From NCBI RefSeq assembly GCF_947498095.1, contig NZ_CANMJE010000010.1:1-64000 (forward strand): DNA of 64,000 nt, given 5' to 3'. Source of the stretch: an uncultured Shimia sp. GTDB lineage: Bacteria; Pseudomonadota; Alphaproteobacteria; Rhodobacterales; Rhodobacteraceae. Below the pieces are notes generated by a model. It worked only from the letters and a program-made list of their open reading frames with translations. It searched no databases and was not told the origin of the DNA. Shown in pieces: positions 7,255 through 19,040 of the stretch; position 1 is the first letter of the stretch; each line of letters begins with the position of its first letter. A program made the position numbers and the translations under genes.

Positions 7255-8160
7255 TTACCAGTCAGAGGGCCCTTTTTCGGCAAATGCATGGACAAGAAAG
7301 TCTATGAATGCGCGCACCTTGGGCTGCGTAAAGCGACCGGGCGGGTAGACGGCATAAATGCCTTGGGTCTCGATCGGAAGTTCGGGAATGGCATCCTCGA
7401 CCAAGCCTTGCTCGAGAGCGTCGGCATAAAGAAAACTTGGCAGATATGCGATCCCCAGACCAGAAATGGCCGCATTGAGAAGCGATTGGCCATCATTCAC
7501 GCTCAGCCATCCAGCGGTGCGCACCTGACGTTTTTCGCCGGATGGCGCAGTCAGTTTCCAAACCGCACCATTAGACTGGCTGGAGTAATGCAAAAGCTTG
7601 TGGTCATTCAGATCGTCAATTTTCTGCGGGCGTCCGTATTTCTCAAAGTACGCGGGGCTTGCGATCATGCGTTTGGTCGTCGCGGTCAGCTTGCGTGCCC
7701 GTAGCGAGCTGTCTTCCAGCTCACCGATGCGGATCGCCATGTCAAAGCCTTCGCTGATCAACTCAACATACCGATTGTTGAGAACCATATTGACGGTAAT
7801 CTCAGGGAATTCCGCCAAAAACTCACCCAGAACAGGACTGAGGTGATTGACGCCAAAATCTGTTGCAACGCTGATGCGCAGCAATCCGGATGGGGCCGAT
7901 TGCATGGATGTGACCAAGGCGTCCGCTTCGCCGGCATCGTTCAGAACCCGGCGCGCCCGGTCATAGTATGCCAAGCCAATTTCCGTCGGGCTGACCCGGC
8001 GCGTTGTGCGGTTCAGCAGTCGCGCGCCCAGACGGGCCTCAAGCGATGACACATGCTTAGAGACAGCAGATTTCGAGATGCCCATCTTTCGTGCGGCATC
8101 TGTGAACCCGCCCTGGTCCACCACAGTGGCAAAGGCTTCCATTTCCGTCAGGCGATCCAT
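7255..8160 (-). CDS. LysR family transcriptional regulator
   Basis: A 301-residue LysR-type regulator. Residues 1-60 are the winged helix-turn-helix (Phe-Thr-Asp-Ala-Ala-Arg-Lys-Met-Gly-Ile-Ser-Lys-Ser-Ala-Val-Ser-Lys-His). The rest is the periplasmic-binding-like co-inducer domain with Arg-Ile-Gly-Glu-Leu. It resembles the large LysR group that controls quinone, redox or aromatic-response genes, but its targets and inducer cannot be read here. The usual divergent target gene is missing: upstream lies the mobile element at 8.44 kb, which may have separated the regulator from its partner. Confidence 0.93.
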   Translation of the reverse strand: MDRLTEMEAFATVVDQGGFTDAARKMGISKSAVSKHVSSLEARLGARLLNRTTRRVSPTEIGLAYYDRARRVLNDAGEADALVTSMQSAPSGLLRISVATDFGVNHLSPVLGEFLAEFPEITVNMVLNNRYVELISEGFDMAIRIGELEDSSLRARKLTATTKRMIASPAYFEKYGRPQKIDDLNDHKLLHYSSQSNGAVWKLTAPSGEKRQVRTAGWLSVNDGQSLLNAAISGLGIAYLPSFLYADALEQGLVEDAIPELPIETQGIYAVYPPGRFTQPKVRAFIDFLVHAFAEKGPSDW

Positions 8161-8435
8161 TTTCCTACCTCAATTCTCTCGTTTGAAATAGGTTATGCTG
8201 GCGAATTTGGGCAGAAGCTGGGCAGTGCTCAGACAATATCAGGGTTTTCGAAGCCATCGTTTGCGGCTTGGAAACAGCGAAACAAGGCGTTTCCACATAC
8301 ATCCCTAGAGTAGTGCGGGACATCTACGTTATAGTCACCTGCTACTCTGAGTAGTATGGAGGCTGCACGCCGCGCTAGCCTGACTATAATGTGCTATAGG
8401 GCGTCAAGCACGTCAATTTCCCCCATCCCCCAGTC
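8161..8435. other. Gene-free region between LysR gene and mobile element
   Basis: No gene is seen. It should hold the LysR promoter. It contains a small dyad CTACT-CTG-AGTAG at 8341-8355 and a TATAAT at 8385-8390 on the plus strand without a clear -35 partner. GGCAGAAGCTGGGC near 8213 recurs with one mismatch near 10751 inside the element, possibly by chance. No tRNA-like fold is present, so the element did not enter a tRNA gene on this side. Confidence 0.5.
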
Positions 8436-8446
8436 TCCCCCCATCG
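8436..8446. repeat. Candidate left attachment core (11-bp direct repeat)
   Basis: TCCCCCCATCG occurs here, 24 bp beyond the stop codon of the integrase gene, and twice in tandem at 18017-18038 at the far end of the phage-type genes. A direct repeat that flanks an integrase-bearing segment, with one copy adjoining int, is the expected arrangement for attL/attR. The repeat is short and C-rich, so chance agreement is possible. Confidence 0.5.
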
Positions 8447-8470
8447 GACAGGGTTTTGTTCGCGCAATGT

Positions 8471-9433
8471 TCACCCAATACCACCGAGTGCGTTCCCAAT
8501 CAGGTCAACGGCATTCGCGCGGTGTTCCTCGTCTGCCGAGCAGTACAGTTGCAGTGTGGTAGAGATGTTCGCGTGGCCGAGCAGGGACTGGAGGGTCTTC
8601 GGATCGACGCCTTGGTTGTGTAGCATTGTCGCAAAGGAGTGCCGCGCCGTGTGGATGCCTTGGACATTATCTGGGAATCCCAGCTTCTTTTTCGCACGGT
8701 GCGCCCGCTGGCTCAACTTGCCCAGTTCGAGGAAGCCTCCCCGCTCGCCGGGAAACACCATTCCCTTGTCCTTATATATAGGCCCTGCTGCGAGACGTTC
8801 TTCGGCGTTCTGTTTTCGCTGGGCCGCTAGCACGTCGCGCAGCGCTTGGGATAGGGGGATAGTGCGGGCGCTGGACGCGGTCTTGGTGTCGCCCAAAGCC
8901 AGTTCGAACTTTCCGTTCTTGTCCCGGCGTTTGTAGAGGGTCCGGCGCACGTCTACGTGGGTGTCGTGAACATCTTCCCACATCAGACCGCCAAGTTCTG
9001 AGCGTCGACAGCCTGACAGGAACAGAAATCGCAGCGCATTGCCGAACCGCGATGTCCGGTCCATCAACTCTATATACTGTGCGACCTGCGCCACGGTCAG
9101 CGCTAGCGGTTTGTTCTTGCGGGCAGTAGGCAGGGTCACGCCGTCCATCGGCGACACTGGGATCAGGCGCAAAACAACCGCGTGTTTCATAGCCACGGCC
9201 AGAACGGCCTTGGTCGACTGGACGGTTCGCAGAGACAGTGGCTTGCCATTTCCGACCGGGTTGCCCTTGGTCAGCAGTTTGTTGAGAGCGAATTGGATAT
9301 CCTGACCATCCACTCTGATCAGTGGGATGTGACCTATCAGCGGAATGATAGATTCCATCTTTCCCCAGTGTGACAGGGCGCTGTTTCCCTTAAGAACACC
9401 AGAAGCCACACGTCCCTCGTGCCACTGGGTCAA
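8471..9433 (-). CDS. Tyrosine recombinase/integrase, 5'-truncated
   Basis: A 320-residue site-specific recombinase starting at TTG. All catalytic residues are present: Arg in Ser-Gly-Cys-Arg-Arg-Ser-Glu-Leu, Lys in Gly-Asp-Thr-Lys-Thr, His-Thr-Ala-Arg-His, His in Leu-Leu-Gly-His-Ala-Asn and the nucleophile Tyr in Leu-Gln-Leu-Tyr-Cys. The core-binding domain occupies about residues 1-95. The same frame stays open to 9508 and reads like integrase (Ala-Arg-Arg-Ala-Gln-Leu-Asp-Leu-Leu-His-Gly) before a TGA, with no ATG. The arm-binding N-terminal domain and native start are therefore missing. The loss coincides with the truncated primase on the other strand. Catalysis might persist from an alternative start, but recognition of arm sites should be impaired. 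Confidence 0.85.
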   Translation of the reverse strand: MTQWHEGRVASGVLKGNSALSHWGKMESIIPLIGHIPLIRVDGQDIQFALNKLLTKGNPVGNGKPLSLRTVQSTKAVLAVAMKHAVVLRLIPVSPMDGVTLPTARKNKPLALTVAQVAQYIELMDRTSRFGNALRFLFLSGCRRSELGGLMWEDVHDTHVDVRRTLYKRRDKNGKFELALGDTKTASSARTIPLSQALRDVLAAQRKQNAEERLAAGPIYKDKGMVFPGERGGFLELGKLSQRAHRAKKKLGFPDNVQGIHTARHSFATMLHNQGVDPKTLQSLLGHANISTTLQLYCSADEEHRANAVDLIGNALGGIG

Positions 9434-9459
9434 GAACTCAGCCAGAGACCCCTGCCCGC

Positions 9460-10470
9460 TTGTCCCGCGTGTGCCGTGGAGCAGGTCCAGCTGGGCGCGT
9501 CTGGCTTCTCAACTGGATGGCGTTGAAGGTGCAGTTTCCAACTCTGTTGATGGAAGTGGCACCCGTGCTGGTGTCAGATGTTCACGGCACGGGCAAGTCG
9601 ACGATTTCCAAGATAATGGGGCGCATCTTCGGCGACCATGGTGAGAGCATCAGCGATATGAACAAACTGACGGGACGGTTCTCTGTTATCGCCGAAGAAA
9701 CGTTGTTCGTTGGCGCAGACGAAATCATGTTTTCAGGTGATCGCAAGCGGGCTGACGTTCTCAAAGGCATCCTGGCCGACGACCGTATTAACGTGGAAAA
9801 GAAGTTCTTCGACGCTCAAACCATCGCCAACATGCTGGGCATCATCTTCACATCAAACCACGAGCACGTGGCACACGTCGAAGCCTCGGACCGTCGCTAC
9901 GGGTTTCTGGAGGTGATGGACACTTTGGCTGGCGACAAGGCGTACTGGGCAGAGTTCTACGCGTGGCTGAAAGGTGGTGGCTATGGCGAAATCCTGTTCC
10001 AACTACTGCAGCGCGATGTGTCCCAATTCGAACGCCGCGACATCCCAGTGTCCAAAAAGAAAGCCCAAAATATCTTGGCGTCGCTGGAAGGTGTGGACGC
10101 GTGGCTGTTGGAGAGCGCCAACCGGGGAACGATGACGCTGGAGGGGGCTAGCCTTTCCACACCTGACGCCAACAGTTGCTTTGTCGACAAGAACAACATG
10201 TACGCGGCCTACTTGGAGTGGACCCACAAGCACCACCGCTATACGTCTCCGATGGACGTGGCACAGTTCTGGAAGCACCTGCGGACCAATCTGGACGTGG
10301 TTGTTCACGAGAACAAAGGCGGCAAGGGCAACGGGCACCGTCGGAGCGTGGAACTAGTGTTGCCTCCAAAGGCCATCCAGCGGGTCCACCTTGCCAACAA
10401 CCTGACACAGCCAGAGGTCGAAGAACTAGATGACGTGCCTGAGTTGTGGGACTGGCTGAGCAAGTTCTAG
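9460..10470 (+). CDS. Helicase-primase C-terminal part (D5/DUF5906-like), 5'-truncated
   Basis: A 336-residue open frame. From about residue 14 (Val-Trp-Leu-Leu-Asn-Trp-Met) it reads as the superfamily 3 helicase part of phage and plasmid primases. It has a P-loop His-Gly-Thr-Gly-Lys-Ser-Thr at 42-48, an acidic Walker B-like Gly-Ala-Asp-Glu-Ile and a sensor Phe-Thr-Ser-Asn-His. Relatives carry about 400 more residues upstream with the primase domain; these are absent. The first 13 codons are antisense integrase, so neither TTG9460 nor ATG9517 is a native start. The first glycine of the P-loop is Asp, which may weaken ATP binding. Originally it would have driven replication of the element. Confidence 0.75.
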   Translation: MSRVCRGAGPAGRVWLLNWMALKVQFPTLLMEVAPVLVSDVHGTGKSTISKIMGRIFGDHGESISDMNKLTGRFSVIAEETLFVGADEIMFSGDRKRADVLKGILADDRINVEKKFFDAQTIANMLGIIFTSNHEHVAHVEASDRRYGFLEVMDTLAGDKAYWAEFYAWLKGGGYGEILFQLLQRDVSQFERRDIPVSKKKAQNILASLEGVDAWLLESANRGTMTLEGASLSTPDANSCFVDKNNMYAAYLEWTHKHHRYTSPMDVAQFWKHLRTNLDVVVHENKGGKGNGHRRSVELVLPPKAIQRVHLANNLTQPEVEELDDVPELWDWLSKF

Positions 10471-10815
10471 GAGGTTCTGAGGTACATACTGGTAGAAGGT
10501 GTTACATGCTTTTGCATTTCTGCTGCACCATGCTCATTTCGTTACTAGGGCGGATACCTGTCGTTCGCTGCTTTTGGCACCAATGTCTGCTTTGCGTATG
10601 ATTCGAACGTCTTGCCTTGTGCAAGCGCCCACAGTCATGGTTGTTCTGTAAGTCGATACAATCGCGGCCAACCGCAAGCAATATCGCTCAATGAGAACAA
10701 GTCAGGGGAGTAAACGCACCGAAAAGGTCTGCAAATTGTCAAAGTTGTGGCAGAAGTTGGGCGAGCTAGCTAAGATGGGAACCTGTAGAAATTTGGTACA
10801 CTGGGAGATTTCATT
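10471..10815. other. Gene-free region upstream of the VPLPA-CTERM gene
   Basis: I see no convincing gene in these 345 bases. The stretch is less GC-rich than its neighbours and presumably carries the promoter of the gene at 10816, whose start is preceded by GGGAGA. It contains one copy of a 17-base sequence (10578-10594) that recurs at 11939-11955. Confidence 0.5.
10578..10594 (+). repeat. Copy 1 of a 17-bp intergenic repeat
   Basis: CACCAATGTCTGCTTTG here and CACCAAGGTCTGCTTTG at 11939-11955 differ at one base. The copies bracket the VPLPA-CTERM gene and lie in the same orientation. Related short intergenic sequences (TGTCTGCTTTGGGCC-like) seem familiar from Roseobacter genomes, but I cannot verify that here. 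Confidence 0.4.
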
Positions 10816-11514
10816 ATGAAATTTGGTGCATTAGTCGCAATTGCCGCAGCTGGCTTGCTTTTTGCAGGCGGTGCGGGCGCGGCGACTTACATAGGAATAA
10901 CGGAAGGAAAGCGTGACTTGGTTTCCGGCACTACGGCCCTAATCGGAACGGATTGTTCACCTATTGGCTGTATTGGAGGTACCAAACTCGGATTTGGTGC
11001 GGGCGAGGCAAGCGTTGTGGATCTCCACGGTCGAATTGTCGGCGACCGAGATAGGTATATCTTCGAAGCCACATCTTCATTTACTATCTCATTTTTGTTC
11101 GGAGGTGTTCAAGCTATCGATACAATTAATGACGGACAAGAAGATGGAACAGGCGCAGAATACACCCTTAACCCCACTGGGTTTATTAGGGAAGGAGTCG
11201 ACGGGGAGGGCTTAAACAACAGATCGGTGTTTTCTCTGCTTGGTCTTCTGGGTAACCCTCTCGATTTAGAACACACGATGCGCACAAATGTTGGTGGCCC
11301 TAATAGTAATAAGCTGCCGAATCCTGGATCGCCGATCCTATTCCAAGGCGGACCTGGTTCTTATGCCTTCACTATCGACAATCGGGATTCAAATCCGAGC
11401 TATGCCGCTCGCTATGACATTCAGATCGCGGCCGTTCCCGTTCCCGCAGCGGGCTTATTGTTGCTGGCAGGCCTCGGCGGACTGGGTTTTGCGTCTCGTC
11501 GCCGCAAAACCTAA
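10816..11514 (+). CDS. VPLPA-CTERM sorting domain protein (exported cargo)
   Basis: A 232-residue secreted protein. Residues 1-22 are a signal peptide (hydrophobic core, Gly-Ala-Gly-Ala-Ala cleavage region). The C-terminus is a textbook exosortase sorting tail: Val-Pro-Val-Pro-Ala-Ala-Gly, a hydrophobic helix rich in Leu and Gly, then Arg-Arg-Arg-Lys. In Roseobacter relatives such tails are processed by a VPLPA-specific exosortase and the proteins reach the cell surface or matrix. The central part is rich in Gly, Asn and Ser and not recognised. Its place between primase and terminase makes it cargo of the element; a terminator follows directly. No exosortase gene is in the window. Confidence 0.85.
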   Translation: MKFGALVAIAAAGLLFAGGAGAATYIGITEGKRDLVSGTTALIGTDCSPIGCIGGTKLGFGAGEASVVDLHGRIVGDRDRYIFEATSSFTISFLFGGVQAIDTINDGQEDGTGAEYTLNPTGFIREGVDGEGLNNRSVFSLLGLLGNPLDLEHTMRTNVGGPNSNKLPNPGSPILFQGGPGSYAFTIDNRDSNPSYAARYDIQIAAVPVPAAGLLLLAGLGGLGFASRRRKT

Positions 11515-11544
11515 CTCCCGAACAATCTATTTGAGATCATTTTT

Positions 11545-11579
11545 GGCACCGGGTTCTTTTACTCGGTGCCTTCATTTTT
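11545..11579 (+). terminator. Rho-independent terminator after the VPLPA-CTERM gene
   Basis: GGCACCG (11545-11551) pairs perfectly with CGGTGCC (11564-11570) around a 12-base loop, followed by TTCATTTTT. It lies 30 bp after the stop codon at 11514, so the cargo gene is a self-contained transcription unit. Confidence 0.88.
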
Positions 11580-11938
11580 GTTAAGTGAAAATGGTCCTGT
11601 ATGAGCGATGGCGCTTCAGATTGGCCGGACGGCAGGCCCGAATGACAGGTAGGTTTGCCATAGTCATGGTGGTTCCTCCCGTCCGCCGCTATCCACCACA
11701 GCGCTAACCTGACAGCGGCAAAGTTAGGATAGCAAGCGGATATGAGGCTAAGTAGCAAGTCAGGAAAGAGACCATGTTACCTCGTGGTACACCATGTTTG
11801 AACGTCTGCATTGCAGAGGCTTTGCCTACTGCTCGTAAGACAGGGCCGGTTTTTCTCGTGCGATTTCGCTACGGCTAAAGATGTTGCAATTTCTCACTCG
11901 GTAGAAGTGAGCTCAATACTGCTGTTAGCTACATTGGC

Positions 11939-11955
11939 CACCAAGGTCTGCTTTG
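11939..11955 (+). repeat. Copy 2 of a 17-bp intergenic repeat
   Basis: CACCAAGGTCTGCTTTG, 16 of 17 bases identical to 10578-10594 and in the same orientation. It runs into GGCCGAAAGCG and lies immediately before the iteron-like region. Confidence 0.4.
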
Positions 11956-11973
11956 GGCCGAAAGCGACAACCC

Positions 11974-12246
11974 TGCCGAGGTTCGGCACACGTCCGAGTT
12001 GCTCCAAAGTGGTGCTCGGATAACTCCCAAATTGTGCCGTCGGCGGGGTCGGCGGGCGTCGGTAGGTCGAACCTGCCGATCCCAAAACCCCTCTTGGCCC
12101 GAACCCACGGTCTCGTCGGCAGGTTCGGCACATGGCGGCGGGTTCTGGAGGGCAAACCTCCCAAAAAATAAAAAAGGGGTTTGGTTCCAATCGCATACAT
12201 CTCTTCCCCCCAAAAAACTTTCCAAAAACCTGCCGAACCTGCCGAC
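11974..12246. repeat. Iteron-like inverted repeats; candidate replication origin
   Basis: Seen directly: a dyad TGCCGA-GGT-TCGGCA at 11974-11988, a half-related TCGAACCTGCCGA at 12067-12079, and a perfect 16-bp inverted repeat with arms GTCGGCAGGTTCGGCA (12115-12130) and TGCCGAACCTGCCGAC (12231-12246). Between the arms lies an A-rich tract at 12163-12175. Iterated sites flanking an A+T-rich unwinding region are typical of origins recognised by phage and satellite replication initiators such as P4 alpha. A primase gene in the same element supports this. Alternatives are a transcription regulator's operator cluster or a decayed coding region. Confidence 0.45.
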
Positions 12247-12587
12247 CTTGCCAACAAATCTTGGAACGACTTGGGGGATGGTGGTGTTCGTCAGGCCGAG
12301 GCCACGAGAGGGGCACGGGAGCGCCGTCCCGCGGTCCAAGCAGTGTCCACCGCCAGCCAGTGCTCAAGCCCAGGGACGACCCCGTCCGGTTGGCTCGTGT
12401 TGGGCGGGCTGGTCACACCACAGCACCGCCGCTTGCCCGCGCCAAGGTTGGGCTTTGTCCCAGTCGAACTGCGCGTGCTGGAAAGTCATCTGCCACCTGC
12501 CGACCGCCCCGAACGCATCGCCGCGCCAGCCGCTGGAATATTTGGGATGGTTCACACCTAGAGGAAGGTAGCCCAGAAAGGCTTAGG

Positions 12588-12650
12588 GGGCATTTCGTAC
12601 CGCGTTGGGGGCTATTCCTTGAGCCAATTGCGGGCATTTCCGGGCATTTC
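12588..12650. repeat. GGGCATTTC direct repeats; candidate terminase site (cos/pac)
   Basis: GGGCATTTC occurs at 12588-12596, 12632-12640 and 12642-12650; the last two sit in an exact tandem of the 10-mer CGGGCATTTC. They lie 107-169 bp upstream of the small terminase start. Small terminases bind short repeats that in many phages are close to their own gene, so this could be the packaging recognition site. That role is inferred from position only. Confidence 0.4.
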
Positions 12651-12756
12651 CAATTTATTCTGACCGATATTGCCAGCGAGGCTTCGTCGATATTTTTTGG
12701 GGGGTATCCCGTGGCCTTTTGGAGGCCCTCAGAACACCCGACGAAAGGCTTTCGAT

Positions 12757-13248
12757 ATGTCAAAATCCCACTTCCATCACGATCAGGCTGACGCGCTCGC
12801 CTCTGCTGGGAAACTGCACTCTTGGCCAGACGAGATCGAGTTGCCAGTCGATCCCGAAACCGCCGGACGAGCGCAGAAGGTTTTCGACAAAGTCCAGACG
12901 AACCGCGCCCACGGCGACTGGGCCGAGGGTGATTTGTTGGAAGTCGCGCGGTACGCTCGTCTAGTGTCCGATGTTGAAGCAGTCTACATTCAGCTGCAAC
13001 AACAGGGATGGACTGTGATGGGGGGCCGCAATGGAACAACGCCTGTCGCAAACCCTCTGGCAACAATTCACAGCAACTTGCAAGCGACATTGGGAGCCAT
13101 CGCGCGTCGCCTCAACCTAGCCGCAGGCTACCAGCCAGCGAAATCAAAGGACCGTGGCCCTCAAGACGCTAGAGCCAGAACAGAGCGCGAGGCCCGAGAG
13201 GTCCTGAAAGGCAAAGACGCTCCCGAAGGTCCACGGTTGCTTGCGTGA
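12757..13248 (+). CDS. Phage terminase small subunit, P27 family
   Basis: A 163-residue protein. The middle and C-terminal parts follow the P27 small-terminase pattern: a helix with Asp-Trp-Ala-Glu-Gly-Asp, then Arg-Asn-Gly-Thr-Thr-Pro-Val-Ala-Asn-Pro-Leu-Ala-Thr-Ile-His and the closing Ala-Ile-Ala-Arg-Arg-Leu-Asn-Leu with a charged tail. Small terminases bind the packaging site and hand DNA to the large-subunit ATPase/nuclease. Start 12757 is chosen because GAAAGG precedes it and upstream codons look non-coding. No large-subunit gene follows, which is abnormal for a phage but matches satellites that borrow a helper's TerL. It overlaps the next gene by 4 bp (GTGA). Confidence 0.72.
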   Translation: MSKSHFHHDQADALASAGKLHSWPDEIELPVDPETAGRAQKVFDKVQTNRAHGDWAEGDLLEVARYARLVSDVEAVYIQLQQQGWTVMGGRNGTTPVANPLATIHSNLQATLGAIARRLNLAAGYQPAKSKDRGPQDARARTEREAREVLKGKDAPEGPRLLA

Positions 13249-13508
13249 TACCTTTCCCTAGGCAGGTAGTGTTGCCGGACGGCCCAGAGGGGCAACACGC
13301 CGTCCAAGTGTTCGACGCGCTTGTGGAACGCTACCCGCCCGATGGTTTCCTAGACGAAATCCGGCTTGCTACCGCAGCGCGGGACGCAGCGATGTTGCAG
13401 TACCATTCAGAAGAGTTTGCAAGCATTCCAGACATCGCTGCGCTGTTGGAAGAGGACGCGCGGCGAACACTATTGGAACTCCGGCCAGCGCCGACATACG
13501 ACGCCTGA
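13245..13508 (+). CDS. Small phage-type protein of unknown function
   Basis: An 87-residue, acidic, mostly helical protein starting with GTG within the stop of the terminase gene (GTGA overlap), so its translation is coupled to TerS. I do not recognise the family. It has no membrane segment or cysteine motif. In complete phages this position would be taken by the large terminase; at 87 residues with no Walker motif it cannot be that. A terminase partner or modulator is a guess from position only. Confidence 0.6.
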   Translation: MIPFPRQVVLPDGPEGQHAVQVFDALVERYPPDGFLDEIRLATAARDAAMLQYHSEEFASIPDIAALLEEDARRTLLELRPAPTYDA

Positions 13509-13558
13509 GGTCTTCCCATTGTTGGGTGTATATCGCCTGTGGTTTTGTGGGGTGTACC

Positions 13559-13744
13559 ATGGAGATACAACCAATGCCCAACTCTTGGCCGAGCGCTGTC
13601 ATAGCGCCCCAAAATGCTGATCTTACATACGCGATATACCGCGAAATACTCAGACGAAAACCAAACTCAGATGTCATACGCGCTGCCCGTTTCGCGGTTG
13701 CCGCCGCATTTGTTGGGACACACTGTGACGCCGTAACACATTGA
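13559..13744 (+). CDS. Small hypothetical protein
   Basis: A 61-residue frame whose central segment (Asp-Leu-Thr-Tyr-Ala-Ile-Tyr-Arg-Glu-Ile-Leu-Arg-Arg) and following Val-Ile-Arg-Ala-Ala-Arg-Phe-Ala-Val-Ala-Ala-Ala-Phe look like two amphipathic helices. There is no strong ribosome site. It occupies most of a 308-bp gap otherwise lacking a gene. A long minus-strand frame overlaps it but has the composition of a shadow. No family recognised. Confidence 0.35.
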   Translation: MEIQPMPNSWPSAVIAPQNADLTYAIYREILRRKPNSDVIRAARFAVAAAFVGTHCDAVTH

Positions 13745-13816
13745 CAACAAAGCGATATATTCACGCAAGATACCTCGCGTGATAAAATGTACGTACCTGA
13801 TTTATAGGACGTACGG

Positions 13817-14377
13817 ATGCGCAACATCACTACAGCGCCGAAACTAGCCCGCAAACTTGTATCACGGGCACCTTTCCTCCGTGCCGAAATCACAAGAGCC
13901 TCGAAAGCCGAAGAAAATGGCACTGCTGGTGCTACAGTGGAACGTGAACGTCTGACGGCTAGTTTTGCCCGCGAACACAAGGCTGTCGAAGACGCGATTG
14001 TCGAGGCTGACGCCGCCGCCCGTGACTTCGATTTCGCGCATATCATTCTGAAATCAAAAACTGATTTGGGAACCCAACGTGGCCCAATTTCCGAACTGGC
14101 TGCGATGCTGGTTCGAATGTCGGATGGGGAACCTCACTGTCCATCTTTGGACACGCTCACTGAGATTGCCTCAGGCAAAACAGCAGTGGCCGCAGAACAA
14201 GCCAAGGTTCGTTTGGAAGATGCTGAACCTGAACTGCGATCCGTTGCACTGCTGGCACAATACCGAGCGGTACTCCCCTCAGTAAAATTTGATCACAGCC
14301 ACCCGAAAGTGGTGAGGCTCAAGCACGCCTTTTTCGATGCAAGCCAAATCGCTGCTAAGCGTAGAAAGACACCCTGA
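13817..14377 (+). CDS. Hypothetical phage-type protein, helical
   Basis: A 186-residue protein starting 3-4 codons after an imperfect dyad around ACGTAC. It is rich in Ala, Glu, Lys and Arg and should be largely alpha-helical; residues 30-85 could form a coiled coil. It is the first gene of a compact run that leads into the capsid gene (2-bp gap to the next frame). In HK97-like head modules this place holds a portal or protease, but the length and lack of motifs (no Ser-Lys or Ser-His protease site) rule both out. A scaffold or head accessory role is possible but unproven. Confidence 0.6.
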   Translation: MRNITTAPKLARKLVSRAPFLRAEITRASKAEENGTAGATVERERLTASFAREHKAVEDAIVEADAAARDFDFAHIILKSKTDLGTQRGPISELAAMLVRMSDGEPHCPSLDTLTEIASGKTAVAAEQAKVRLEDAEPELRSVALLAQYRAVLPSVKFDHSHPKVVRLKHAFFDASQIAAKRRKTP

Positions 14378-14379
14378 AA

Positions 14380-14727
14380 ATGACCCAGAACCCCTTCCGC
14401 TCAGCTTCCAGCCAGCGACGCCAAATGCCCCCCCAGCCGACGATTTCGAAGGCTGATATTATTGCCGAGATCGACGCTCGCATTGGGGCGGTTACGGATG
14501 TTGTCACAGACGTACTGGCGGAAGAGTTGGGACCAGTCACAAAGCGACTAGTCACGATTGAGCGTGCCTTGGACGTCACTCGGAAAGACGTTGCCGACAC
14601 AATCCAGAAGGCCACAACAGCCTATTTGGGCGGTGGCACTGTCGATGATGACGACGTCGCTCCGACTTTGGATGAACTCGAAACAATGGCTGCTCGCCAC
14701 AAGAAGACATTGGAGAACCGCAAATGA
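14380..14727 (+). CDS. Hypothetical protein upstream of capsid gene, coiled-coil
   Basis: A 115-residue protein with a proline-rich start and a predicted helical segment (about residues 23-85: Asp-Ile-Ile-Ala-Glu-Ile-Asp-Ala-Arg-Ile, then Val-Thr-Lys-Arg-Leu-Val-Thr-Ile-Glu). It ends in an acidic-to-basic tail. It overlaps the capsid gene by 4 bp (ATGA), so it is expressed in step with it. Size, helicity and position would suit a scaffold-like or head-assembly protein; this is inference. No known family recognised. Confidence 0.6.
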   Translation: MTQNPFRSASSQRRQMPPQPTISKADIIAEIDARIGAVTDVVTDVLAEELGPVTKRLVTIERALDVTRKDVADTIQKATTAYLGGGTVDDDDVAPTLDELETMAARHKKTLENRK

Positions 14728-16091
14728 CCCTATTCCAAGGCGACGACGCCGCCGACCGCAAAGCCCGACAAATCCTCGACAACGAAATGAAAGCCGTTGC
14801 CTTCGATGACGCATTGAAAGTGGCCAAAGCCGCTCCGGCAAATGCCCGAAAACTCGCTGCTGTGCAGGCAGAGAACAAGGCGCTCAAAGCGCAGGCTGAT
14901 CGCCCGGTCAATGTGACGGTTAAACCGCCCGCCGCACCACGAAAAGCCGTACAGCAGGCGAAGGTATCCTCGCTTCGTACTTTGGCATTGGCGTCATATG
15001 GTGGAATGAAACAGGCTGTCGATAAGGGCCACGTCCACGGCCACATTGAAAGCCTGTTGGAATCCAAACGGACCCACCAACACGTGATCCGCGATGCAAC
15101 AGCTGTGGCCACGACCACCAGCGCTGGTTGGGGCGCTGAACTGACCACCTCAATGAGTATGGGATTTGTGGAAGACCTAGCCCAAACGTCTTGTGCAGCC
15201 CAACTAATCGTCCGCTCCGGTGTTCAACCTTTCAACGGCGCAAACAGCCTTACTTGGGCCAAGCGTGCCGATAGTACCAAGGGGGATATCAAACCGTCTT
15301 GGGTCGGCGAAGGGGCGACCATCCCAGTAATGCAGTCTCGGTTTAGTTCTGTCACGCTGTCCCGCCATAAGATGGGCGCGATTGCCGTGGCGAGTGATGA
15401 ACTGATCCGCGTATCTAATCCTGCGATCTTGAGACTGATCGAAGACTTCATTCGCGAGGATGCTTCAACTGGTTTGGATACGTCGATGTTCGACCCAAAC
15501 ATTTCTGAAATCGCTGCCATCCGGCCAGCATCCATCACCTACAACGCGACCAACACCAGCAGTGATGGCGGATCGACGCTTGCTAGCATCCTGAAAGACA
15601 TCAAGTGGCTCCGCACCAATTTATCTGCCGTCAACGCGGTGGACCCAGTGATCCTGATCCACTCGGATCGCTATATGGCTTTGCAGATGGTCACAGGCGA
15701 TAGTGGGGATACTTTTCCTCTGCGGGACGAACTCGCCGCGACGGGTGGTTTGTTTGGAATACCAATTCTGCACAGCCCCTTTATGAATTCTCAGCACGCG
15801 ATTGCCGTTGATGCCGCCCGTCTAGTCGTCGCGATGGACGGTGTTCACGTCGACACAAGCAGCGCAGTCACTCTGGCGATGGCCGACGACGATGGCGTTG
15901 CGCCGACGATGGCCGACACCGACGCAGTGAATGATAGTGGCGGCTCTATCCACATCAGCGACGTGACATTGCCTGTTACTGAGATGCGTTCGACGTTCCA
16001 GACAAGTTCCACCGCGATCCGTCTGGTAATTCCGATGACCTACAAAATGTTAAAGCCAGCCGTGGCGTATTTGACCAACATTGGGTGGTGA
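14724..16091 (+). CDS. HK97-fold phage major capsid protein
   Basis: A 455-residue protein. The first about 125 residues are helical and charged, with a heptad-like stretch, as expected of the scaffolding delta-domain. From about Thr-Thr-Thr-Ser-Ala-Gly-Trp-Gly onward it has the HK97 capsid order. Recognisable segments are Trp-Val-Gly-Glu-Gly-Ala-Thr-Ile-Pro-Val, then Lys-Met-Gly-Ala-Ile-Ala-Val-Ala-Ser-Asp-Glu-Leu-Ile (E-loop and spine helix) and Gly-Leu-Phe-Gly-Ile-Pro-Ile-Leu (P-domain), ending Met-Thr-Tyr-Lys-Met. No capsid protease gene is nearby, so the delta-domain either stays on or is cut by a helper's protease. It is the only recognisable virion structural gene in the element. Confidence 0.85.
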   Translation: MTLFQGDDAADRKARQILDNEMKAVAFDDALKVAKAAPANARKLAAVQAENKALKAQADRPVNVTVKPPAAPRKAVQQAKVSSLRTLALASYGGMKQAVDKGHVHGHIESLLESKRTHQHVIRDATAVATTTSAGWGAELTTSMSMGFVEDLAQTSCAAQLIVRSGVQPFNGANSLTWAKRADSTKGDIKPSWVGEGATIPVMQSRFSSVTLSRHKMGAIAVASDELIRVSNPAILRLIEDFIREDASTGLDTSMFDPNISEIAAIRPASITYNATNTSSDGGSTLASILKDIKWLRTNLSAVNAVDPVILIHSDRYMALQMVTGDSGDTFPLRDELAATGGLFGIPILHSPFMNSQHAIAVDAARLVVAMDGVHVDTSSAVTLAMADDDGVAPTMADTDAVNDSGGSIHISDVTLPVTEMRSTFQTSSTAIRLVIPMTYKMLKPAVAYLTNIGW

Positions 16092-16095
16092 TACT

Positions 16096-16397
16096 ATGAC
16101 ACAGCCTCGCATCGTCAAAGCCAATCCCGAACCTCTCACTGCTTCGGTGGTGACAATCAATGTGCGGCAGACGTCACGATCAGGCAGGGCGACCCGGTCA
16201 GGATCAGTCACCCGGAGAGCATCCGCGAGGCTATTGGGTTGTACCTGCTCGACAATGGTTTCTCGGGGAATCAGACAATCCACGTCCGGACGCTGAAGCG
16301 CGCCGAGTGGGCTTGCCAGTCATTGGAATACACTGGCCTAGCCACGGGTTTGTCCAAGACCGCTGCGAATAAATTGCGAAAGGAATCCCGAAAATGA
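16096..16397 (+). pseudogene. Frameshifted small phage gene
   Basis: The ATG at 16096 opens a frame that reads well for about 23 codons (Met-Thr-Gln-Pro-Arg-Ile-Val-Lys-Ala-Asn). After about 16165 the coding pattern continues in the frame one base earlier: Asp-Val-Thr-Ile-Arg-Gln-Gly-Asp-Pro-Val-Arg-Ile-Ser-His-Pro, on to Ala-Asn-Lys-Leu-Arg-Lys-Glu-Ser-Arg-Lys and TGA at 16395-16397. That second frame has no start codon of its own before codon 60 or so. The two parts together would give about 98 residues. This may be a frameshift mutation, a sequencing error or, less likely, programmed slippage. The stop overlaps the next ATG. Confidence 0.6.
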
Positions 16398-16633
16398 TAG
16401 TCCGAGATTTTTCAAAGATCGCGACCGCTGGTGGTGGCGCAATGCCCGACAACCCGCTGATGACATATAACAAATTCGGTGTCAGCCAGCACCATATCGA
16501 CGCCTCGACCATCAAGGACGTTTCGCCCATCAATAAGACGCTGGGGGTAGTCACCAACGCCGAGGGTGTGGGCCAGCGCACCTACGTCAAACTAGCACAA
16601 TGGGAGGCATACCGTGATCGCAAAGAGAAATAA
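16394..16633 (+). CDS. Small hypothetical phage-type protein
   Basis: A 79-residue protein starting in the ATGA overlap with the preceding frameshifted gene. The sequence is polar with a Gly-Gly-Gly turn near residue 13 and a basic C-terminus. No membrane helix, signal or known motif. It belongs to the run of closely packed genes after the capsid gene, where head-tail adaptors would stand in a phage, but nothing in it identifies such a function. Confidence 0.6.
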   Translation: MIVRDFSKIATAGGGAMPDNPLMTYNKFGVSQHHIDASTIKDVSPINKTLGVVTNAEGVGQRTYVKLAQWEAYRDRKEK

Positions 16634-16796
16634 GCAAGGCACTCTGGTTGGGACATTTGACGAGGCGCGTTTCGACATCAACAAGCCAGTGCAGGGTACA
16701 ACGATGGAGGGGTTGGTTCAGATGGGACAATCCAACGGCCTCAACGCTGCGGTCTGGCACCGCGTCTACGCTCTAGCGACGGATTTGACGCCATGA
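16614..16796 (+). CDS. Small hypothetical phage-type protein
   Basis: A 60-residue protein with a GTG start inside the end of the previous gene (20-bp overlap) and a 4-bp ATGA overlap with the next. Basic N-terminus (Ala-Lys-Arg-Asn-Lys), then Phe-Asp-Glu-Ala-Arg-Phe-Asp. The overlaps and preserved frame support a real gene, but the product is unknown. Confidence 0.5.
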   Translation: MIAKRNKQGTLVGTFDEARFDINKPVQGTTMEGLVQMGQSNGLNAAVWHRVYALATDLTP

Positions 16797-16972
16797 CGAC
16801 CCGTAAAAAGGCCGAACCCGACGTTGTCCAAGTTGCCCAAGTGCAGAACGCCAAATTCGTGCGTGGCGAAACCAAGCGGCAGACCCTCGCTGCCCGACTG
16901 ATAGATTGTCGGAAGGCAGGGTTGGTGTCTGCTGCAGCCGCCTTGGAAAAGGAGTTGGAAAAATGCCGTTAG
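16793..16972 (+). CDS. Small hypothetical phage-type protein, basic
   Basis: A 59-residue protein (Met-Thr-Thr-Arg-Lys-Lys-Ala-Glu-Pro start) with a net positive charge and two probable helices (Gly-Glu-Thr-Lys-Arg-Gln-Thr-Leu-Ala-Ala-Arg-Leu and Ala-Ala-Ala-Ala-Leu-Glu-Lys-Glu-Leu). It starts in the stop of the previous gene and its end overlaps the next start by 10 bp. A nucleic-acid-binding role would fit the charge but is only a guess. Confidence 0.5.
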   Translation: MTTRKKAEPDVVQVAQVQNAKFVRGETKRQTLAARLIDCRKAGLVSAAAALEKELEKCR

Positions 16973-17133
16973 ATGACACCAACTGGGAGCCGCGTCCCGA
17001 GTATGACCGCGACGCCGTTGCAGCGTCGGTCCAGAAAGAATTGGGACGCCCGCTGTTTTGGTCCGAATATGTGAAAATTTGGAACCACCTAACGGCCCAG
17101 ATGGGTAAGACTGATTGGTGCTACGATGGATGA
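16963..17133 (+). CDS. Small hypothetical phage-type protein
   Basis: A 56-residue protein starting at the ATG preceded by GGAGTTGG. The sequence is rich in Asp, Trp and Tyr (Asn-Trp-Glu-Pro-Arg-Pro-Glu-Tyr-Asp-Arg-Asp-Ala; Phe-Trp-Ser-Glu-Tyr). An upstream in-frame start at 16906 lacks coding character. It overlaps the following gene by 8 bp. Function unknown. Confidence 0.5.
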   Translation: MPLDDTNWEPRPEYDRDAVAASVQKELGRPLFWSEYVKIWNHLTAQMGKTDWCYDG

Positions 17134-17434
17134 CTTTGAGCCTGAACTTTTAGCGACGCTGTTCGATCTCTGCCAGTTGGCTGGGAAAATGGCTGACGAT
17201 CCCAATTTTCGACATCTCAAGGGAGAGGCGCTAGGCAATCAGATGTATGCCACTATTGCCGCGCAGATGTACGTTGGTGCTTCGACGCCGCCGAGCAAGA
17301 TTGATGTGTCGTCTGTCCTGGCGACCATCGACATCGCCTTGGAAGAGGGCCGCGATGTCGGCGAAGACGTCGCTCTTTGGGTCGGCAGGCAGTCGGCACA
17401 GCGAACAATCCCTCGCGGTACAACGCTGTCATAG
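17126..17434 (+). CDS. Hypothetical phage-type protein, acidic
   Basis: A 102-residue acidic protein (Met-Asp-Asp-Phe-Glu-Pro-Glu-Leu start), helical in the first half. Its start overlaps the preceding gene by 8 bp. It contains no cysteine pair, signal or membrane segment that suggests a family. The tail (Arg-Gln-Ser-Ala-Gln-Arg-Thr-Ile-Pro-Arg) is basic. Confidence 0.55.
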   Translation: MDDFEPELLATLFDLCQLAGKMADDPNFRHLKGEALGNQMYATIAAQMYVGASTPPSKIDVSSVLATIDIALEEGRDVGEDVALWVGRQSAQRTIPRGTTLS

Positions 17435-17448
17435 GGGAGCACGGCTTG

Positions 17449-17799
17449 ATGTCTCAATCGCCAGCTAGCGCTGTATCATTAGAACGCACTTTCCTGCCGA
17501 AGAGATACCAGCCTGCTGTTAGCGTTCTGGTTTCGGCATTGCCGCTGGGTATTCACTCATCGGTCAACGGCAAGGAGGATAAGCTAGCACTATTCGCTAT
17601 CACCGCAGCGGTCGCCAACATCAACGAGGCGGTACGCCTACACAAGAACGGCACCAGACGAAAACACCACGAAGAATTTAACGAGTTTCTAGCCAGCGCG
17701 GCGTGTTGGATTGCCGACATCACGGAATTGGAGGCGGATTTTCTATATCAATGCCTTCTACGCGGTGTCTGCGCGACCGTACCCCCAGAGGACGACTGA
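17449..17799 (+). CDS. Hypothetical protein, last gene of the element
   Basis: A 116-residue protein starting at the ATG that follows AGGGGAG; an in-frame TTG start further upstream is less likely. It has a hydrophobic middle (Ala-Val-Ser-Val-Leu-Val-Ser-Ala-Leu-Pro-Leu-Gly), too polar for a clear membrane helix, and a helical C-terminal half (Glu-Phe-Asn-Glu-Phe-Leu-Ala-Ser-Ala-Ala-Cys-Trp-Ile-Ala). It closes the plus-strand run. No family recognised. Confidence 0.55.
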   Translation: MSQSPASAVSLERTFLPKRYQPAVSVLVSALPLGIHSSVNGKEDKLALFAITAAVANINEAVRLHKNGTRRKHHEEFNEFLASAACWIADITELEADFLYQCLLRGVCATVPPEDD

Positions 17800-18131
17800 T
17801 ACACCGATATCTGGCGGTATCGCCCCGCCAACGGGAGGTACATCCGAGTGCGCTTGGCATATGGTCCGCTATAACCATAGCCGCAAACATTGTTGAGACA
17901 TCCCCGCGTGTGATCTCTTTGGGACATCGCAACAACCGAGGATGACCCAATGGCTAGGCAGAGACCACCAAAGCACATTCGAGACGCAAATAAGGACGAC
18001 AAAGACTAGTCTCTCGTCCCCCCATCGTCCCCCCATCGCCTCAGACGCCAATAGCCGCAGAACCCGTCCCCGTTGGGTCTCGCGGCCATCCGGCGCTGTT
18101 GTGGAAGCGATGAAACAATCGGTTTCGTCAG
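17800..18131. other. Right end of the element, no convincing gene
   Basis: No gene is supported in these 332 bases. A 19-codon frame at 17951 and a few longer frames on both strands have poor coding character. The right copies of the putative attachment repeat are here (18017-18038). The remaining 93 bases up to the AEC transporter stop should be host sequence and contain no tRNA. Confidence 0.5.
18017..18038. repeat. Candidate right attachment core (tandem 11-bp repeats)
   Basis: Two head-to-tail copies of TCCCCCCATCG, identical to the single copy at 8436-8446. If this is the crossover core, one tandem copy may have belonged to the target and the other to the element, or a strand-slippage duplication occurred. 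It is preceded by AGTCTC, as is the left copy at a slightly different spacing. Confidence 0.5.
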
Positions 18132-19040
18132 CTACAGGAGCACTTCGATCAGCGTTATCCAAACCGGTAGAGTTGCAGCCGCCAGCAAGGTGGATTGCGC
18201 TACGAGCGTGGCTGCCAATTCGCGATCTGCACCAAAGCCTGCAGCCAGAACGTGAGCGGCAGACGCCGTGGGCATTGATGCGAACAACACAAGCGTCTGG
18301 GCGATTGGGCTTTCGATTCTGAACGCAAGACATCCAATAAGTGTCACAGTCGGCAGCACCAATAGTTTCGTCGCCGTAATAATGCCACTGAACCGATTAA
18401 GCCGCGCCAATGCACCCCAGTTCATTGTGGCTCCGACTGAGATCAACGCAACGGGAATGGCAGCCTGCGCCAGCATTTCCAGCGGGGCCATGATGGGCGC
18501 CGGTATCGTCACGCCGCTCAGCCCAACGATCACACCGGACACACTTGCAATCAGAAATGGGTTAGTGGCCACTTTTATCAAAGTCTGTTTCACACTGCCG
18601 CTACCACGGGACAACGCGGTGACGGCGAACACGTTGGCCACCGGAATGGCCAACCCTACAGCGACGGCCAACTCACCCAATGGCGGAGAAGACAACGTAC
18701 CGACCGCCACAAAGGCCATTGCAGTGTTAAACCGCCACGCAACCTGCCACGACCCGGCAAAGTCGACAAAACGCTCCGGCCCAAACGGGCGGGCCAGATA
18801 CCCGACACACAGTCCCAGTGTCAGAATGGCCCAGACCGCAGGGCCGATACTCAGGATATCACCAACAGCGATGGGGCGCCCTGAGGCCGCGACAAAGATC
18901 AGCGTCGGAAAGAGAATCTCGAAATTCAGCTTGTCCAGACCCTGCCACGCATTCACCGACAGGCGATTGCGCACCAGGCCTCCCAAGATCACCATCAGGA
19001 AACTGGGCAATAGGCCGAGGAGGATTGATACGAACACCAT
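18132..19040 (-). CDS. AEC family transporter (auxin efflux carrier fold)
   Basis: A 302-residue inner-membrane permease with about ten hydrophobic segments and the inverted-repeat layout of the AEC/BASS group (Leu-Ser-Val-Asn-Ala-Trp-Gln-Gly-Leu-Asp-Lys-Leu-Asn-Phe near residue 30). Bacterial members export or import small organic acids such as malate; the substrate is not evident. I start it at ATG 19038-19040, where a purine-rich site precedes; an upstream ATG at 19058 adds six polar residues. It is intact, so the element lies beyond its 3' end without breaking it. Confidence 0.88.
   Translation of the reverse strand: MVFVSILLGLLPSFLMVILGGLVRNRLSVNAWQGLDKLNFEILFPTLIFVAASGRPIAVGDILSIGPAVWAILTLGLCVGYLARPFGPERFVDFAGSWQVAWRFNTAMAFVAVGTLSSPPLGELAVAVGLAIPVANVFAVTALSRGSGSVKQTLIKVATNPFLIASVSGVIVGLSGVTIPAPIMAPLEMLAQAAIPVALISVGATMNWGALARLNRFSGIITATKLLVLPTVTLIGCLAFRIESPIAQTLVLFASMPTASAAHVLAAGFGADRELAATLVAQSTLLAAATLPVWITLIEVLL

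Follow-up and report, generated by a model that had tools for sequence, protein, structure and literature searches.

Classical phage-inducible chromosomal islands (PICIs; SaPI and EcCI) use the capsid protein of their helper phage, and in PICIs, as in P4, repeats near the primase gene act as replication origins. Some classical PICIs encode a small terminase subunit (TerS) that redirects packaging, whereas capsid-forming PICIs (cf-PICIs) encode capsid, protease, portal, connectors, large terminase subunit (TerL), TerS, and HNH (PMC10690885). Here we analyze a 64-kb stretch of DNA (the window) from an uncultured Shimia sp. (assembly GCF_947498095.1, contig NZ_CANMJE010000010.1), in which an insertion of about 9.8 kb encodes an HK97-type capsid protein. 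We consider this insertion to be probably a decayed copy of a helper-dependent satellite with a tyrosine integrase, whose family would bring its own HK97 shell and borrow the portal, TerL, and the rest of the tail.

With classical PICIs, the elements of this family share an integrase and a primase with nearby repeats, but they carry a capsid protein. In the window copy both genes are present in truncated form, and repeats that may represent an origin lie nearby. Their own HK97 capsid protein, integrase, small size, and presumed borrowing of the tail are reminiscent of cf-PICIs. However, no portal, TerL, or head maturation protease was found in them by profile, and TerS is present in only 3 of 12; because searches for the first three found none, the elements are not cf-PICIs as defined in PMC10690885. 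The Mulch and Flayer satellites of Streptomyces phages also encode a capsid protein, but together with TerS, TerL, portal, scaffold, and adapter (PMC10690885). PLE11, a Vibrio cholerae satellite of ICP1, encodes its own tape-measure protein and forms chimeric tails; PLE tails are shorter, and putative tape-measure genes occur in a sampling of cf-PICIs (PMC12987554). Five of the 12 elements likewise encode a tape measure, a trait that is not new for a satellite, since PLE-encoded ones are reported there; the family adds to these recent reports. In contrast to the elements described here, PLE remodels capsids stolen from ICP1, and its shell is not PLE encoded (PMC10945586). Virion-encapsidated integrative mobile elements (VEIMEs) and tycheposons, compared by description only, are similar as marine integrated elements that travel in virions (PMC10803314 and PMC11389934). 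In the literature searched, no satellite with its own capsid but without portal and TerL was found, and our claim of novelty is limited to that literature.

We lean slightly toward the view that these elements represent a third type of satellite, intermediate between PICI and cf-PICI, in which the proteins that determine particle size (the shell plus, for some members, the tail ruler) would be the satellite's own, the portal, motor, and rest of the tail would be borrowed, and shells would nucleate on a foreign portal. If so, a capsid shell would be exchangeable without its own portal and terminase, and the portal-shell interface would become a testable rule of head assembly.

A family of capsid-encoding elements in Rhodobacteraceae

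Twelve elements were found in eight Rhodobacteraceae genomes belonging to four genera (G, C, and L numbers denote genomes, contigs, and loci). The genome of the window, G000, holds two, the second of which lies on contig C14 (L011) and is apparently intact; G023 holds three, G608 two, and G006, G008, G015, G276, and G303 one each. The preliminary description of the locus had predicted a conserved set of small elements combining integrase, primase, TerS, and capsid without TerL. This holds in part: small elements with integrase, primase, and capsid and with no TerL or portal recur in these eight genomes within one capsid clade, but a P27-type TerS is not the constant partner of the capsid. Searches with the capsid, the own genome being counted each time, were positive in 7 of 100 relatives (G050 and G093 gave weak matches and were not counted as members), in 4 of 394 family genomes, one of which (G360) holds a prophage, and in 5 of 25 genus genomes. 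A search of 390 order genomes with o6, the family marker, was positive in four and added one genome, G608, with its two elements. Four candidates per genome were scored in the family-genome capsid search and eight in the o6 search, so that members may have been missed. A contig scan with an alignment of close capsids gave two loci.

Profile searches across the 12 elements found the capsid gene in all of them, o6 in 11 (not in L015), o7 in 10 (not in L015 or L019), o8 in 8 with the broken copy of the window counted (it is a single open reading frame [ORF] in the other seven), and gpX in 4. As judged from this matrix, the constant block is o6-o7-capsid-o8, which would provide a marker set for such satellites in marine Rhodobacteraceae. 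The same search found no o6, o7, or o8 in seven capsid-bearing phage records (L034, L061 to L064, L027, and L029); their sole other match to a family of the elements is the tape measure of coliphage 705R7 (L064), a protein of 1,080 amino acids (aa). The satellite tape measures matching that profile, in L016 to L018 (G023) and in L059 and L060 (G608), are about half as long, 535 to 596 aa.

An integrase is present in 11 elements, 10 of them detected by the profile matrix plus L015 (PF00589, 3.7e-27); the call in L018 concerns the 3' half that lies inside the repeats (PF00589, 1.4e-10), and L032 lacks one. Eleven elements also have a gene for a primase or a helicase-like protein, of several types. 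TerS was detected by profile in two elements and weakly in that of G276 (phrog_5601, 0.0022; PF05119, 14.4 bits). Between primase and o6, seven others (L011, L013, L016 to L019, and L060) carry ORFs of 72 to 121 aa, here called oA, which are confined to elements lacking P27-TerS; neither gene is present in L059, and L032 is truncated. TerS and oA never occur together; oA is a possible alternative packaging redirector. Five elements, of 12.9 to 14.8 kb, are bounded by repeats at tRNA genes (Table 1); no useful end repeat was found in L011, L013, L015, L016, or L030.

Capsid phylogeny, selection, and structure

A tree was built from 25 capsids, using the part that follows residue 120 in the window protein: 12 satellite capsids, 11 phage-type capsids (from phages, prophages, or phage-like plasmids whose records contain TerL and/or portal), and 2 from other small elements. 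L024 and L029, apparent near-copies of L022 and L028, were left out, as were other database matches. The 12 satellite capsids form one side of a branch with support of 92/91, recovered in 90% of 200 bootstrap trees, and the phage label needs three changes on the tree. Close relatives with the same genes inside a full prophage, named in the preliminary description as evidence against its reading, do not appear in this tree: the 11 capsids whose records contain TerL and/or portal all lie outside the clade of the 12 elements.

The satellite capsids measure 437 to 471 aa, apart from the partial one of G008 with 261 aa. Of the 11 phage-type capsids, nine measure 633 to 704 aa, and the one scanned, from L034, consists of Peptidase_S78 plus Phage_capsid; the L025 and Mcat4 capsids are shorter and are preceded by a separate gene. 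In the three satellite capsids scanned, the phrog_617 match begins only at position 189, 221, or 311 of 626. The loss of the protease would thus also need explaining, nine phage-type capsids being long fusions as far as the one checked shows. Matches to the capsid in the phage and plasmid collections share 24.7 to 32.0% identity (best 20 of 28 and best 20 of 27); of six such records inspected, five show a TerL and/or portal gene next to that of the capsid, and for an Ancylobacter plasmid element neither is listed.

The capsid gene of the window has an intact open frame. The window and C14 capsids are 76% identical, with a ratio of nonsynonymous to synonymous differences per site (pN/pS) of 0.25 at a pS of 0.69; a second pair gives 0.20. 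The former value indicates that selection acted on both the window and C14 lineages; it does not show that the window copy remains subject to it. The structural model of the capsid is poor (mean predicted local distance difference test [pLDDT] of 50.8, with a low-confidence N-terminal helix at residues 8 to 58) and was used for fold matching only. With this low-confidence model, Foldseek returned 14 matches at E ≤ 0.001, with HK97-fold shells among them, the best being the capsid of the cf-PICI EcCI2 (9gyi; E of 1.8e-4). The o6 model is helical, also with low confidence (pLDDT of 63).

The capsid protein might instead serve interference, coassembling with helper heads or poisoning them, with the satellite itself traveling in helper shells. 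Reshaping of helper heads by a satellite has a precedent in PLE (PMC10945586), and a capsid protein lacking the protease that is fused to it in related phages, in an element that encodes no portal, would fit such a role. We nevertheless regard it as rather unlikely: the HK97 region is full length in 11 of 12 elements, and the eight capsids aligned have open frames and share 31 to 76% identity with the window copy, which suggests a structural role.

Decay of the window copy

The preliminary description had envisaged a minimal capsid-swapping design. The window copy is not intact but a decayed member of the family, with both integrase and primase truncated and o8 broken in its frame. Alignment of its integrase to the nearest relative, that of L019, starts at residue 65 of 378, so that about 60 N-terminal residues are missing, and alignment of its primase to that of L015 starts at residue 452 of 872, the N-terminal half being missing. 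The lost front parts of the two genes face each other, and the simplest reading of these alignments is an internal deletion between integrase and primase. This copy is probably not able to move by itself, and its intact relatives are the place for testing the idea of a shell-making satellite.

Truncation at this junction and a broken o8 are also what an ordinary deletion remnant of a full prophage might present, and the G303 element is indeed a capsid-end remnant. Yet such an origin appears quite unlikely, since the same gene set without TerL, portal, and protease is shared by 12 elements from four genera within one capsid clade, and five of these have repeats at tRNA genes and a compact gene order. 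Moreover, it is hard to see how independent deletions would each time spare one and the same o6-o7-capsid-o8 block, and none of the seven phage records has this block. At the level of the family, a deleted prophage is therefore disfavored by the capsid tree, the gene matrix, and the profile searches for TerL, portal, and protease.

TerL, portal, and protease searches

No TerL, portal, protease, tail, lysis, or repressor family was matched by the remaining ORFs of the window element (13 ORFs scanned against PHROGs and in part against Pfam), in agreement with the preliminary description, and the own genome gave no match to the TerL models phrog_2, phrog_9, and PF03237 or to the portal model phrog_12. 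A resident helper in the own genome was therefore rejected as far as these four models reach. As the sole TerL test, phrog_2 proved inadequate: the related G360 prophage has a TerL of the phrog_9 and PF03354 families, which phrog_2 did not detect. For this reason, phrog_9 was run on the eight host genomes; it matched the G360 control (C17) as well as G006, G015, G023, and G276. Across all eight genomes, no match to phrog_2, phrog_9, or phrog_12 lies closer than 20 kb to an element on the same contig. The nearest match on the same contig lies about 130 kb away in G008, 150 kb in G276 (C12), 230, 255, and 410 kb in G023 (C11, C13, and C18, respectively), and 375 kb in G015 (C10; a weak match); the element contigs of G006 (C11), G303 (C16), and G608 have none. 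PF03237, run on five of the eight genomes, likewise had no match within 20 kb of an element; one match lies 138 kb from one of the G608 elements.

To these models we added local profiles of TerL, portal, and protease, made from eight, seven, and nine related phage or element records, respectively, and searched with them the ORFs of at least 40 aa in the window and in 18 to 36 kb around each other element. They recover the held-out prophage L034 (TerL, 2e-106; portal, 6e-135; protease, 2e-51), a control that is itself not pristine, its TerL being split between two ORFs and a stop lying in the portal region. In or around the 12 elements, they gave no match at E up to 1. That the elements are true cf-PICIs whose TerL, portal, and protease have diverged beyond recognition, as their own HK97 capsid and integrase, the TerS of some, and the Foldseek match to EcCI2 might suggest, is hardly credible, given that these profiles find the control and nothing in the elements and that no unassigned ORF longer than 361 aa lies between the integrase and the last element gene in G276 and in both G608 elements.

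Candidate helper prophages were found in two host genomes, in which phrog_9 TerL and phrog_12 portal genes are immediate neighbors (G006 C8:126465-129319 and G015 C8:491386-494255), on contigs other than those of the elements. G276 has two phrog_9 TerLs with only weak portal matches nearby. Other TerL-portal pairs may represent gene transfer agent clusters.

Proposed satellite cycle

From the gene content of the family, we infer the following cycle for a helper-dependent satellite with its own shell. The integrase would excise the element, which would be replicated by its primase from the repeats located 3' of the primase gene. The capsid protein would then build a shell around the helper portal, its N-terminal extension possibly acting as a scaffold, with o6 and o7 as candidate assembly partners. 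Helper TerL would fill this shell under the guidance of the satellite TerS, a role that in most members may fall to the unrelated protein oA. Finally, the helper tail would be added, in five members on the satellite's own ruler, the tape measure.

Six elements were examined for short repeats (the window element, L011, L013, L015, L017, and L030), and each has a cluster of them 3' of the primase; these clusters may be replication origins. The motif differs in each, and in L011 the repeats lie inside an ORF. In the window element, 9-mers resembling ACCTGCCGA occur in six copies (at most one mismatch) within 400 bp, versus no more than two per 400 bp in the rest of the window; the motif itself was derived from the cluster region, and this control concerns the window element only.

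Several points weigh against a shell-making satellite family. No helper phage, no induction, and neither particles nor packaged DNA were observed. The support of the capsid clade is good, not overwhelming, and the capsid pair formed by the window and L013 has a pN/pS of 0.51, with synonymous sites saturated. P27-TerS is confined to 3 of the 12 elements; L015 has no o6 and no detected o7, L019 and L032 are incomplete, and the window copy is truncated. Repeats do not fix the ends of L011, L013, L015, L016, L030, and L032, the 14-bp repeats of L017 and L060 are short and count mainly since they end at a tRNA gene, and two elements lie near a contig start (about 2 kb in G023 C13 and 8 kb in G000 C14). 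As to helpers, no phrog_9 TerL was found in the own genome, G008, G303, or G608, and a PF03237 match, from a search covering five of the eight genomes, is located 25 kb beyond the repeats that bound the G023 C18 element.

Extent and gene content of the insertion

The own genome is 99.99% complete in 51 contigs. A permease gene flanks the element on the right and occurs in 24 of 25 genus genomes, the own genome counted. Five permease neighborhoods from the genus were compared with the window; in four of them, the LysR gene that forms the left flank in the window directly adjoins the permease, representing an empty site, while the fifth (G009) matches in the permease only. The empty-site alignments end at 8283 to 8295 and restart at 18102 to 18154. 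In L046, L047, and L049, one and the same stretch of 15 to 17 empty-site bases aligns to both insertion ends; in L048, 48 bases lie in between. The insertion thus spans about 8279/8293 to 18112/18126, slightly wider than first thought according to these breakpoints. It carries at both ends an imperfect 15-bp GAAACAA...GTTTC sequence whose copies differ at three bases. The limits previously suggested, 8436 and 18038, were based on an 11-bp repeat of chance level (four 11-bp pairs occur in the flanks, versus 0.83 expected) and are abandoned.

PHROGs and Pfam matches confirm the integrase, primase, P27-like TerS, and HK97-type capsid reported in the preliminary description (Table 1). The TerS call rests on phrog_5601, because the Pfam match is weak (PF05119, 17.1 bits, below the cut-off of 24.7). 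No RNA family of Rfam was found in the element.

Table 1. Features of the window element, with the tRNA gene-associated end repeats of five other elements
Feature	Position	Strand	Evidence or remark
Left end, attL-like, GAAACAA...GTTTC	8279..8293		Alignments to four empty-site relatives stop at 8283-8295
Tyrosine integrase, C-terminal part	8471-9433	-	phrog_1, 3.7e-55 (172-453/611); PF00589, 9.8e-21
Integrase-primase junction, putative internal deletion	9434..9480		Both frames lose homology toward the junction
Primase/helicase, C-terminal part (DUF5906, P-loop)	9460-10470	+	phrog_1156, 6.1e-31 (539-831/855); DUF5906, 3.7e-19
PEP-CTERM protein gene, cargo or later insertion	10816-11514	+	Between primase and repeats; PF07589, 20.9 bits (cut-off 20.7)
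Iteron-like ACCTGCCGA cluster, putative replication origin	11969..12254		Both orientations
TerS, P27-like	12670-13248	+	phrog_5601, 1.5e-9 (22-147/161); homologue in L015
87-aa ORF	13245-13508	+	This copy only; no homologue among the 12 elements
o6, family marker, predicted helical	13817-14377	+	In 11/12 elements, 0/9 comparison records
o7, small protein	14380-14727	+	Directly 5' of capsid gene; in 10/12 elements
HK97-type major capsid protein, without protease domain	14724-16091	+	phrog_617, 9.5e-25 (311-592/626); PF05065, 1.5e-8
o8, frame-broken	16081-16397	+	Parts in ORFs 16081-16296 and 16239-16397, both matching the o8 profile
79-aa ORF	16394-16633	+	No homologue found
60-aa ORF	16614-16796	+	Common to three other elements
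59-aa ORF	16793-16972	+	Common to four other elements
56-aa ORF	16963-17133	+	Common to four other elements
Two ORFs	17126-17434 and 17449-17799	+	This copy only
Right end, attR-like, GAAACAA...GTTTC	18112..18126		Empty-site relatives
47-bp repeat	L018		tRNA-Cys
44-bp repeat	L059		tRNA-Cys
30-bp repeat	L019		tRNA-Ser
14-bp repeat	L017		tRNA-Arg
14-bp repeat	L060		tRNA-Ser

Similar elements and neighboring genes

Two other small elements carry a capsid gene and fall outside the 12-element clade in the capsid tree. In Sphingomonas baiyangensis (L021:2498-11983), integrase, primase, capsid, protease, and tape measure genes lie between two tRNA-Arg genes; the nearest TerL and portal matches in that genome are about 0.5 Mb from the element, and phrog_9 gave none. 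The second, on plasmid pLGM of Ancylobacter pratisalsi (L065:5782-15978), carries capsid, protease, a gp10-like connector, tape measure, and integrase, with no TerL or portal in the annotated 17-kb stretch. Their position in the tree suggests that a division of labor with a capsid but no portal or TerL arose more than once.

Genes with other presumed functions accompany several members of the family. The G006 element contains a defense-associated reverse transcriptase (DRT; L013:8737-10476; best model Drt6, 1.7e-147), and a UG9 reverse transcriptase with RTasPolA lies inside the repeats of the G008 element (L019:5723-8925). SduA (Shedu) adjoins the capsid gene of G015 (L015:8263-9534), in an element whose ends are not fixed. 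Next to the C14 element, a PEP-CTERM type protein, judged by eye from its C terminus, is encoded at L011:18821-19351, and fragments resembling a second, broken integrase, also judged by eye, are present to its left (L011:3719-4738). Both elements of the own genome adjoin LysR-type genes, the one in the window (7255-8160) and that of L011 (6231-7184) being 52% identical.

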